From: Sneathiella sp. P13V-1
GTDB lineage: Bacteria > Pseudomonadota > Alphaproteobacteria > Sneathiellales > Sneathiellaceae
DNA length: 64,000 nt
Reading direction: 5' to 3'
Assembly (NCBI RefSeq): GCF_015143595.1
Contig: NZ_WYEU01000001.1
Span: 372,001 to 436,000 of the forward strand
Below the pieces are notes generated by a model. That model was not told where the DNA came from. It searched no databases and saw only the letters and a list, made by a program, of their open reading frames with translations. A program made the position numbers and the translations under genes. How positions within the stretch are numbered: position 1 is the first letter of the stretch; every line of letters starts with the position of its first letter. Positions 9,316-12,752 of the stretch are shown one piece after another.

Positions 9316-10428
9316 TTATTCACCGCGATAATAACGTTGTTCAACAAATGGCATCTTCGCCACTTTTGCGGGTCGCGCTTTACCGCGAACCATCAATTGA
9401 ATGTCTGTCCCAACGGCAGAAAGTTCCAACGGAACGTAACCCATGGCAACAGGCGCCTGCATTGTGGGCCCAAAACCACCAGACGTGATTTCGCCAACAA
9501 TGTTACCGTCCATATCGGCAATTTCCGTATGCTCACGTGCAGGTGCACGGCCTTCCGGCAAAATGCCAACGCGTTTCATGGCAGGTTTTTCTGCGATCTG
9601 TTTAAGGATCACATCAGCGCCTGGGAAATTGGCTTCTTCCCGGCGACGTTTTGCAATGGCCCAAAGAAGGGTTCCCATAACCGGCGTTGTTTCCTGCGTG
9701 AGATCGTGACCATAAAGGCAAAGCCCGGCTTCCAGTCTTAGGGAATCTCTTGCACCCAGACCAATAGGGGCAACCTCATCTTCTGCCAACAATTTACGGC
9801 AAATCATTTCCGCCTCAGATGAAGGCATGGAAATCTCATAGCCATCCTCGCCTGTATAGCCGGAGCGTGTCACAAAGCAGGCGACGCCTGCAATATCGAG
9901 TTCCCGATATGTCATAAAAGGCATTGTGGTGACTGCGTCGTTAAAGCGCGCCAAAACATCAGCTGCTTTTGGCCCCTGCAGAGCCACGAGAGAGCGGTCT
10001 TCCAGAACTTCAACTGTTGCTTCGCCCGCAAGGCCCGTTTTGAAAATTTCGATATCCTGTTCCTTACAAGCGGCGTTCACCACAACAAACAGGTCATTTT
10101 CGCGGCGAGTAACAATAAGGTCGTCCATAATGCCGCCCCGAACATTTGTCAGGAAACTGTAGCGCATTTGCCCCGCTTCCAGCCCCTGAATATCACCAGG
10201 CAAGAGTTTTTCAATGGATTTAGCTGGGTCATCACCTTTAATGACAACCTGCCCCATATGGGAAACGTCAAACAGACCAGCGGCATCCCGCGTGTGCAGA
10301 TGTTCTTTCATAATGCCGTCAGGATACTGCACAGGCATGTCATAACCTGCAAATGGAACCATTTTACCACCTAGTTCCACATGCAAATCATAAAGAGCGG
10401 TACGTAATGCTTGCTGATTATCGCCCAT
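9316..10428 (-). CDS. gcvT: aminomethyltransferase, glycine cleavage T protein
   Basis: Transfers the methylene group from aminomethyl-lipoyl-GcvH to tetrahydrofolate and releases ammonia. 370 residues; GcvT fold with the N-terminal [19 protein letters not shown] stretch, DVSHMGQ, the folate-site region [11 protein letters not shown] and the C-terminal barrel ([16 protein letters not shown]). First gene of the gcv operon. The ATG (10426-10428) lies behind the SD-like GGAG at 10439-10442. Part of that SD is contained in a long stem predicted to be controlled by the upstream glycine riboswitch. Confidence 0.97.
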
Positions 10429-10440
10429 ATGTTTCTCACT

Positions 10441-10499
10441 CCATAAAACAGAATCGTTTACATCCGCAAATTTGCGGAACGACCCCCTCTGTCTTATGG
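10441..10499 (-). promoter_or_regulatory. predicted expression platform: SD-sequestering hairpin of the gcvT leader
   Basis: On the mRNA strand, CCATAAGACAGA (10499-10488) can pair over 12 bp, with one G-U, with TCTGTTTTATGG (10452-10441). The 3' arm contains the GG of the gcvT ribosome binding site. The 5' arm contains the CAGAG (10491-10487, four of five bases) that pairs as P1 of the second aptamer. A 16-bp perfect palindrome (10463-10478) sits in the loop. No U tract follows, so a translational switch is inferred. Pairings are seen; the switching is inference. Confidence 0.5.
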
Positions 10500-10670
10500 A
10501 CCTGAGAGATTTAACCCTGCCTTGGCAGTGGGCCTACCCCCTTCGGTGAGACACGCTAAATAGCTGTCTTCTTTCCAGAGTTCCATCCTCCTGCGGTCCG
10601 GGTGCCTGAGAGTTTCCGGGGCGGTTGCTCCTTCGGCGATGGGCTTGACCATCTCTCCCGCAGGGATCAT
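10486..10670 (-). promoter_or_regulatory. tandem glycine riboswitch (gcvT element)
   Basis: Read on the minus strand, aptamer 1 (about 10665-10594) has CGGGAGAG, CCGAAGGAGCAACCGCCC and AAACTCTCAGGCACC. Aptamer 2 (about 10590-10486) has GGAACTCTGG, CACCGAAGGGGGTA and AAATCTCTCAGGTCC, closed by P1 CUCUG/CAGAG (10580-10576 with 10491-10487). This is the classic two-aptamer glycine riboswitch. Here it directly precedes gcvT, so glycine is expected to switch on its own catabolism. Confidence 0.95.
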
Positions 10671-10685
10671 CTGAATGTGGCCCTT

Positions 10686-10713
10686 ATAATAGTGTAGAAG
10701 TTCATTCTGTCAA
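10686..10713 (-). promoter_or_regulatory. sigma70-type promoter of the gcv operon
   Basis: Minus-strand TTGACA (10713-10708), 16-bp spacer, TATTAT (10691-10686). Predicted transcription start near 10679, a few bases before the first aptamer. Of the rest of the gap up to the PAS gene (10714-10840), I see only AT-rich sequence without a clear signal. Confidence 0.7.
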
Positions 10714-10840
10714 ACGGCTTCACATCCAAAATGACAGTTAAGACGATAGCTTTAAAATAGTAGTATTAATGCTTACCAAGCGTTAACCAATTTCATGAAT
10801 TATAGGGCCTCCGTAAATCTAGTCGATGTGGTGAAATTTA

Positions 10841-11365
10841 ATGAGACCCAGCACCGAGCTCACGGGACAGGAACGTACCTTGGGTGAAAAAGAAATTATC
10901 GTTAGCAAAACAGACCTGACTGGCAAGCTGACATATGCAAATAAAACCTTCCTCAACATCTCCGGATATACCGAAGAAGAAATACTGGGTGTTCAGCACA
11001 ATCTGATCCGCCACCCTGACATGCCGAGAGCGATCTTCAAGTTCTTGTGGGACCGCCTTGAAGCTGGCGAAGAAGTATTCGCCTACGTCATCAACCAATC
11101 TAAAAACGGAGATCATTATTGGGTGTTAGCCCATGTCACCCCGTCCAAAGACCCACAAGGTAACGTGGTTGGATATCACTCCAACAGACGCGCCGTAGAT
11201 AAAGAACTGATTAAAAACGTGATTATACCTGTATATGCCTCTTTAGCAGATATTGAAAATTCTGCGTCATCGCCAAGGGAAGGCTTGGAAGCCTCGACTG
11301 CAGCCCTATATGACTTTGTTGATTCAAAAGGAGGCAACTATGACAAGTGGATCTTCTCACTTTAA
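10841..11365 (+). CDS. stand-alone PAS sensor protein, Aer-like
   Basis: 174 residues without membrane segments. A PAS domain spans about residues 15-115 with the Aer-type signatures [18 protein letters not shown], the [11 protein letters not shown] stretch and YWVLAHVTP, resembling the FAD-binding PAS of the redox/aerotaxis receptor Aer. Residues 115-174 are probably helical and linker-like. It has no output domain of its own. The ATG of a chemoreceptor gene lies inside its last codons (11340), with that gene's ribosome binding site also in the PAS coding sequence. It probably senses redox state or oxygen and signals through the receptor. FAD binding is inferred from family resemblance. Confidence 0.85.
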
Positions 11366-12752
11366 AATGGCGATCATTTTTATCGTTGCTTCTGTTGCAA
11401 CCGCAATTGTTCTTTTTCTGTCTAATCTTCTGTCAGATAGTACAATGCTACAGGCTATTGTTACCCTTGTTGCGTTTGTTATTCCGGCGGCGGCGGCAAC
11501 TGTCTTCTGGCGAAAAGGTAGAAAAGCTGAACAGGAACGTGACAACATGCGCTCTTTCTTGGAAGCGCGTGCCAGTGAATTGGCGGGCGATGGGCCAGCG
11601 CGCATTACGTCCAGTCTTGACGATGAAATAAAGCGCACCACAGAGATTTGTCTGGATATCTGTAAAGGTAATTTTGAAAATCGTATTCGCCATATCACCC
11701 CTGGCGGGGAGCTAGAAGATATGCAGTGGGCGATTAATGAACTTGTGGACAGAACCGATGCGTTTATGCGCGAAGCGGAGGCGTCTATGGAGCATGTATC
11801 GCAGCAAAAATACTATCGCCGGATTATTTCATTGGATATGCAAGGTTCTTACAAACGTACCGCTGATGCAATCAACGCCTGCACCGAATCCTTTGAAGAG
11901 CGACTCACCCGATTTGATGGTGTTATTCAAAAATTTGAAAACGGCATCTGGGAACTTTCCAACAAGATCTCTGAAACATCTACTGAGCTGCAAGATACAG
12001 CCGACACGCTTTCCAACAATGCCGGTTCAACAAACACTCAGGTAGAACGCGTATCAACGGCCGCCAACAGTGCAACCGGCAGTGTGCAAACAGTGGCGAG
12101 TGCAGCAGAGGAGCTTTCCGCCTCCATTAGTGAAATTAGCCGGCAGGTGAATTCTTCATTGGATAGCACCGGTATGGCACGCGAAACAGTTGAAGAGGGC
12201 AATACAAAAATTCAGGGCCTTGCAGAAGCTGTTAATTCAATTGGTGAGGTGGTTAAACTGATTGAAGACATTGCCAGCCAGACCAACCTGCTAGCCTTGA
12301 ATGCGACCATCGAAGCCGCCCGCGCAGGGGAAGCTGGTAAAGGTTTTGCGGTTGTTGCCAATGAAGTAAAAAACCTGGCCACGCAAACTGCCAGAGCCAC
12401 GGAAGAGATCAGTCAGCAAATTCTGGATATTCAGACTGCTTCTGGAGATGCCGTTCAAACAATGGATGTTATCAATACCTCCATCGGTAATATCAATATG
12501 GCAGTTGAGACAATCGCAACTGCCATTGAAGAACAAGGCTCCGCAACACGTGAGATCTCTGAAAGCGTTGTTAGCGCTGCAAGTAACACACAATCGGTTA
12601 GTGAGCATATCGGCGAGGTCAGAAGTTCAGCTGAGACCACGAACAAGACGAGTAAGACGGTTTTGGAAGAAGCCAATTCTCTTCAGCAACTCACCCATGA
12701 TCTTGAGAAAAATGTTCTAGAATTTCTCAATGAAGCCAGAAAAGCGATCTAA
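11340..12752 (+). CDS. methyl-accepting chemotaxis protein lacking a periplasmic sensor
   Basis: 470 residues from the ATG at 11340, chosen because AAGGAGG (11328-11334) lies 5 nt before it; longer in-frame starts lack this and read through the PAS gene. Two adjacent membrane helices (about residues 8-31 and 36-58) have only a 4-residue turn between them, so there is no periplasmic domain. A HAMP-like region follows (~95-200), then a coiled-coil signalling domain with the conserved tip [20 protein letters not shown] near residues 310-330. The topology matches Aer minus its PAS domain, and the PAS domain is the separate upstream protein. Overlap of 26 bp with that gene. Confidence 0.93.

Follow-up and report, generated by a model that had tools for sequence, protein, structure and literature searches.

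The tandem glycine riboswitch that precedes gcvT in Neisseria gonorrhoeae, a member of the Betaproteobacteria and not an alphaproteobacterium, offers a natural point of comparison for the leader analysed here. In this system glycine raises GcvT, a Rho-independent terminator is not predicted, and the glycine response is reported to persist under the Rho inhibitor bicyclomycin (J Bacteriol 2026, PMC13104608). When the pairing of aptamer 2 with the bases that precede the start codon is mutated, GcvT levels without glycine rise 3-fold in one mutant and 2-fold in another; the 3-fold mutant is described as still glycine-responsive, the 2-fold mutant as largely not (PMC13104608). The gcvT riboswitch of Bacillus subtilis is likewise an ON switch with tandem aptamers, a gcvT operon and an OFF stem beside aptamer 2, and it is described as using a Rho-independent terminator (PMC5666159).

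Among Alphaproteobacteria, gcv leaders with a glycine riboswitch, like the one in Sneathiella, are reported for Magnetospirillum gryphiswaldense and Gluconobacter oxydans, where the mapped transcript start is at most 5 bases from the Rfam match (PMC9549626, PMC5756330). In complex medium the gcvT leader RNA of G. oxydans is given as 60-fold above the genes behind it (PMC5756330), a drop that points to termination or decay. Surveys state that proteobacterial riboswitches favour translational control (PMC6944388, PMC12452182). The passages of the alphaproteobacterial literature at hand describe only aptamers, transcript ends or RNA levels, and the relevant passage of a Bartonella paper that names gcvT (PMC7717549) deals with the in vitro binding of an sRNA to the transcript rather than with a platform. 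No paper combining Sneathiella and riboswitch was found in the literature search, and among the matches listed an alphaproteobacterial gcvT expression platform is not described in any title or opening of an abstract. The aptamer class, the tandem form, the target operon and the translational ON mechanism are already known, and the element itself is a standard glycine riboswitch; the RF00504 family covers the aptamer only and excludes the platform.

The gcv leader of Sneathiella

The window, i.e. the whole stretch of 64,000 nucleotides that was analysed, contains only two Rfam matches at gathering scores; both are to RF00504 and exceed its cut-off of 32, and they are adjacent and on the same strand. 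They are the tandem aptamers that the preliminary description, whose coordinates are correct on the minus strand, had placed before gcvT. According to the profile matches the gene order behind them is gcvT-gcvH-gcvPA-gcvPB.

10713-10686, minus strand: predicted sigma-70-type promoter TTGACA-16-TATTAT (consensus scan, 11/12)
10670-10584, minus strand: aptamer 1, glycine riboswitch (RF00504, 67.7 bits, E 6.3e-12)
10580-10487, minus strand: aptamer 2, glycine riboswitch (RF00504, 38.4 bits, E 3.1e-4)
10428-9316, minus strand: gcvT, aminomethyltransferase, start ATG at 10428 (NF010093.0, 536.3 bits, cut-off 459)
9283-8909, minus strand: gcvH (TIGR00527.1, 157.6 bits, cut-off 115.85)
8909-7560, minus strand: gcvPA, glycine dehydrogenase subunit 1 (NF001696.0, 626.6 bits, cut-off 364)
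7573-6014, minus strand: gcvPB, glycine dehydrogenase subunit 2 (NF003346.0, 697.8 bits, cut-off 441)

In the RF00504 search of the whole genome the aptamer-2 match has wider ends and reaches 45.6 bits; 58 bases lie between aptamer 2 and the gcvT ATG. The promoter form TTGAC[A/T]-16-TAT[T/G]AT is the best match in all 23 genus leaders, 23-28 bases upstream of the conserved aptamer-1 motif, and because this placement is kept the transcript would be expected to start just downstream of the predicted promoter, at about 10680, just before aptamer 1. Divergently from gcvT, the plus strand carries overlapping ORFs of different frames (10841-11365 and 11253-12752) for a PAS-domain protein and a chemotaxis receptor; their matched parts overlap by about 23 bases, and since relatives such as L006, L007 and L024 show the same overlap, a sequencing error is unlikely.

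In the Rfam alignment P1 of aptamer 2 is formed by CUCUG (10580-10576) with CAGAG (10491-10487). The preliminary description had proposed a 12-bp stem, CCATAAGACAGA (10499-10488) with TCTGTTTTATGG (10452-10441), that uses part of the 3' arm of P1 and contains bases of the gcvT ribosome binding site. These strands are complementary with one G-U pair (G10493-U10447), four of the five P1 bases (10491-10488) are taken up by the stem in the fold, and three of the four bases of the Shine-Dalgarno GGAG lie within it. The mask is nevertheless larger than first described: the pair U10500-A10440 extends the stem to 13 stacked pairs (10500-10488 / 10452-10440), and beyond it the folds add an outer 5-bp helix (10507-10503 / 10438-10434), so that the conserved aptamer core UCUCA participates and most of the Shine-Dalgarno region is covered.

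10507-10488, minus strand: 5' arm of the OFF hairpin in the folds, composed of the aptamer-2 core UCUCA (10507-10503), two bases gg and UCCAUAAGACAGA (10500-10488)
10491-10487, minus strand: P1 3' strand of aptamer 2, CAGAG, common to the ON fold and the OFF hairpin (Rfam alignment, folds)
10478-10463, minus strand: 16-base palindrome TCCGCAAATTTGCGGA, at the tip of the apical hairpin that separates the arms (sequence)
10452-10434, minus strand: 3' arm of the OFF hairpin in the folds, composed of UCUGUUUUAUGGA (10452-10440; its 5' end is the anti-P1 strand), one base g and UGAGA (10438-10434); it covers the Shine-Dalgarno region
10442-10439, minus strand: gcvT Shine-Dalgarno GGAG, 10 bases before the ATG (sequence)

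The segment 10505-10425 folds at -31.3 kcal/mol, whereas its dinucleotide shuffles average -15.6 (sd 2.9; z -5.4) and none of the 200 is as stable, and the OFF hairpin is retained when the whole leader is folded. The four bases of GGAG have unpaired probabilities of 0, 0, 0.04 and 0.95 in the free fold, i.e. the site is masked except for its last G. Aptamer-2 P1 and the mask are mutually exclusive, as bases 10491-10488 are common to both and the best P1-forced fold is without the mask. Since the 5' arm holds the core UCUCA in addition to four of the five bases of the P1 3' strand, the mask is also incompatible with a glycine-bound aptamer 2. When P1 is forced, the best fold no longer pairs the ribosome site with the aptamer arm, but GGAG is still predicted to pair in part with the 5' end of the leader (unpaired 0.26-0.52), a value that depends on the inferred transcript start.

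The arrangement resembles that of N. gonorrhoeae in as much as tandem aptamers stand before gcvT, an intrinsic terminator is absent by prediction, and the OFF hairpin joins an aptamer-2 segment with binding-pocket bases to bases just before the start codon; the ON response to glycine, reported there, would be the likely one here as well. On the other hand, N. gonorrhoeae has an enlarged aptamer-2 P3 loop and two sRNAs that also target the site (PMC13104608), while Sneathiella has a long apical hairpin between the arms. The G-tract 10487-10483 at the end of aptamer 2 could form a pseudoknot with CCC 10532-10530 of the P3b loop (both minus strand), of a kind that is mentioned as reported in many gcvT riboswitches (PMC13104608); this G-tract is invariant in both genus alignments described below.

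The 16-bp palindrome had been singled out in the preliminary description. It does lie in the loop of the stem, but a special meaning does not follow: the window contains two perfect palindromes of at least 16 bases where about one is expected in random sequence (64000/4^8), it is not conserved, and the relatives carry other hairpin sequences at this place. We therefore reject it as a protein site or dimerisation signal. The scan for hairpins in relatives used a simple pattern that missed L006, L008 and L025, whose folds do show a hairpin.

Pairing in the genus and in the class

The genus set comprises 23 leaders, 22 from 24 genus genomes (of which one, G014, has only an sdaA leader and another, G017, has no match) and one from a further contig (L036); a leader from another genus of the family (L027) was folded only. 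Several loci assigned to the same genus share identical leaders with named Sneathiella contigs; the nearest is L035, whose GcvT is 89% identical. In the best platform fold all 23 leaders pair the ribosome-site window with the aptamer-2 arm, and 21 of the 23 pair the P1 3' strand with downstream bases. Only the source species (13 bp) and L006 (11 bp) have a helix that runs without a break from the ribosome-site element to the P1 strand; L013 and L020 have a near-unbroken helix with single-base breaks and the other 19 have longer breaks. Most of the other leaders have a split stem, one half of which is beside the ribosome site (often UCC/GGA or GGUU/AACC, with UUC/GAA in L008 and GGUC/GACC in L017) and the other at P1, where CAGAG mostly faces CUUUG or a similar sequence. 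Pairing is weak in L011 and L018 and less markedly so in L017, where 110, 91 and 28 of 300 shuffles, respectively, are as good, so L011 and L018 are no better than shuffles.

Two MAFFT alignments, A1 with 11 rows and A2 with 12, were grouped by the sequence of the variable segment and not by a tree. Paired cells amount to 94.3% (A1) and 93.1% (A2), against 25-62% at slid registers. Counted by columns, 0 of 8 pairs in A1 (the upper pairs only, the lower half being out of register) and 2 of 17 in A2 are changed on both sides, a count from which the UUC/GAA versus UCC/GGA change of L008 is hidden, as MAFFT places this leader one column off. Covariation in A1 is no better than in shuffles (500/500); in A2, 34 of 500 shuffles reach the pair count and 13 of 500 the covariation score. 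The genus is thus a case of conserved complementarity with little covariation, which is to be expected because the 5' arm belongs to the aptamer core and shows hardly any variation. In a swap within the genus, own pairing gave -20.9 and swapped pairing -18.8 kcal/mol (0 of 20000 permutations as good), a comparison that is confounded by relatedness, and for this reason the swap was repeated at the class level.

RF00504 is present in 136 of 240 class genomes. One locus each was taken from 110 of these, and the gcvT N-terminus was found at 107 of the 110. Ten loci were excluded, of which 3 lacked gcvT, 2 a start codon and 5 the aptamer-2 motif, and two were counted with the genus, which leaves 98 class leaders apart from the genus; a one-per-family set of 69 was obtained by removing 29 of the 98 by hand using family labels. 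The swap moves only the variable aptamer-2 segment between UCAGG and GACAG. Own segments give a mean of -19.8 and swapped ones of -17.4 kcal/mol in the 98 leaders (z -10.9), and z is -8.0 in the one-per-family set, with 0 of 5000 permutations as good in either case. Among the controls, the reversed leader gives z -1.8 (-1.2 in the 69), the shuffled segment -1.2 (-1.4 to -2.2), the first 30 downstream bases -0.2 (-0.5) and the reversed segment -3.7 (-2.6); as the last of these is not flat, part of the swap signal may be composition. Compared with the mean of its shuffles, the own segment is better in 78 of the 98 leaders and no better in the other 20. In the best folds the ribosome site is masked by the aptamer arm in 80 of 98, the P1 strand is paired downstream in 63, both elements are present in 57 and neither in 12; in these counts, as in the swap, start codons were assigned by a changed script choice and some will be wrong.

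The 98 class leaders were also compared with shuffles, with wrong start codons in some rows (e.g. L008, L010, L014 and L024). The P1 strand pairs with downstream bases at a mean of 0.61 versus 0.30 in shuffles, and the Shine-Dalgarno window pairs with the aptamer arm at 0.54 versus 0.13, a contrast that is overstated since the site itself is lost on shuffling. Taken as a whole, pairing of the ribosome-site window is hardly above shuffles (0.68 versus 0.62). Covariation of the stem, which the preliminary description had named as a check among close relatives, is indicated at the class level (swap z -10.9 and -8.0), while the columns of the genus are thin in this respect (0/8 and 2/17 pairs). 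As a minor point, the gcvT match of UBA6062 (L023/L068) is split between two frames, residues 1-150 in one and 151-369 in the other, and 73 additional bases separate the pieces; the assembly of this metagenome genome may be at fault.

The match of the switching strand to its own ribosome site throughout the class suggests that the mechanism for which the N. gonorrhoeae work gives support is common in Alphaproteobacteria. A more far-reaching reading, which we propose tentatively and with some doubt, is that the class shares one compact, compensating gcvT platform in which the ligand-binding strand of aptamer 2 doubles as the anti-Shine-Dalgarno, and that each transcript might make a single, practically irreversible choice within the roughly 40 bases from the completion of aptamer-2 P1 to the synthesis of the ribosome site.

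Timing, mechanism and alternative readings

In the finished leader, aptamer-2 P1 costs about 12 and the whole aptamer 2 about 16 kcal/mol according to the model, which is likely more than glycine binding would repay, although the model is without tertiary contacts, magnesium and ligand. The modelled cost of P1 is much lower in shorter transcripts, 0.8 to 4.2 kcal/mol with the 3' end at 10478-10446 (about 4 at about 10478-10454 and about 1 to 2 at 10450-10446), and then increases to 6.7 at 10442 and 11 at 10438. Even before the mask exists, the ligand-free P1 has a modelled probability of 0.001-0.52, so that at most about half of the molecules would carry it. Along a heuristic direct path that leads from the open fold to the masked one, the saddle lies at -70.3; it is higher than the open fold by about 12 and higher than the masked fold by about 25. 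Because P1 is affordable in the model only until about base 10446, these values suggest that the ON/OFF choice would be kinetic and made during transcription; glycine would then have to act while about 40 bases are made, with the state locked afterwards. The predicted narrow decision window makes this leader a testable case of a kinetically controlled translational riboswitch.

We consider it highly probable that the leader is a translational ON switch, as the preliminary description had predicted from the competition between P1 and the mask. Without glycine, the aptamer-2 3' strand UCUCAggUCCAUAAGACAGA would release the aptamer and zip onto UCUGUUUUAUGGAgUGAGA, drawn to it by the apical hairpin between the arms, so that the Shine-Dalgarno would be hidden. 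With glycine, aptamer-2 P1 (CUCUG/CAGAG) would be held, the downstream arm would be left partnerless and ribosomes could bind; the choice would be open only until the Shine-Dalgarno itself is transcribed. This mechanism fits most of the computed evidence, namely the compact platform, 0 terminator-like sites, pairing in 23 of 23 genus leaders and the class-level covariation, in addition to the precedent of N. gonorrhoeae. The ligand, the ON direction, translation as the controlled step and the kinetic decision are what we infer, the direction and the controlled step by way of the anatomy, the catabolic operon and the N. gonorrhoeae gcvT riboswitch.

The main rival of a translational switch is that a blocked ribosome site acts mainly via loss of the transcript, the untranslated leader being terminated by Rho or degraded, which would also give a glycine-ON switch, albeit at the RNA level. 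The 60-fold higher coverage of the G. oxydans leader over the gcv ORFs (PMC5756330) would agree with this, and as intrinsic terminator-like sites number 0 in this leader any termination would need Rho; however, in N. gonorrhoeae bicyclomycin does not abolish the glycine response and RT-PCR is said not to have indicated premature termination (data not shown in that paper; PMC13104608), so we regard the loss of transcript as unlikely to be the main route. It can also be asked whether the complementarity is a by-product, in the sense that aptamer-2 UCUCAGGUCC matches many purine-rich Shine-Dalgarno sites, the UCCAUAAG/UUUUAUGGA pairing is incidental and the switch works otherwise. The core UCUCUCAGG is indeed invariant in the 23 aligned genus leaders and complementary to purine-rich ribosome sites, and swapped leaders still pair at a mean of -17.4 kcal/mol, but the swap varies only the non-core segment and the own pairing is better by 2.3 kcal/mol on average. 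Moreover, the anti-P1 strand, outside the ribosome site, has P1 as its partner, and in N. gonorrhoeae GcvT goes up 2- to 3-fold in the absence of glycine when the equivalent pairing is mutated (PMC13104608), so that a by-product is hardly credible.

A third reading concerns termination proper. The preliminary description had predicted translational control on the ground that no U tract follows the stem; the consensus scan agrees, as it finds 0 terminator-like sites in 10380-10860, yet the 3' arm itself is U-rich (UUCUGUUUU). The apical hairpin with UUCUGUUUU immediately after it could in principle be a weak intrinsic terminator, formed while P1 is held by glycine, which would give a glycine-OFF transcriptional switch, and a simple script flags a terminator-like pattern in the sibling L006 and in L015. 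These two are among only 5 of 121 platforms so flagged (the others being L098, L125 and L169), an operon for glycine degradation would be an unusual place for OFF logic, and the recurring feature is the pairing of the P1 strand and the ribosome site rather than a hairpin with a U run. We consider such a switch very improbable and find no support for a terminator in the platform; the Rho-independent terminator that characterises the B. subtilis platform has no counterpart among the scanned sites of the Sneathiella leader. The translational ON switch is the reading we prefer.

A second tandem glycine riboswitch is found in the same genome (L002, 1371-1680, minus strand; aptamers at 187776-187611 of G000:C4), before a gene for L-serine ammonia-lyase (TIGR00720, 622.8 bits). 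Such an sdaA leader occurs at seven genus loci (L002, L028-L032 and L034). Its platform differs from that of gcvT, as the GGCAUC that follows P1 has potential pairing partners close to the start codon, GAUGCC or GGUGCC. The sdaA leader of the source species also contains a terminator-like hairpin (L002, about 1406-1385, minus strand), AUACCG-UUUGG-CGGUAU with five further U behind it, that is missing, by eye, from the six other sdaA leaders seen. Judging from these sequences, one genome may use two kinds of glycine platform.
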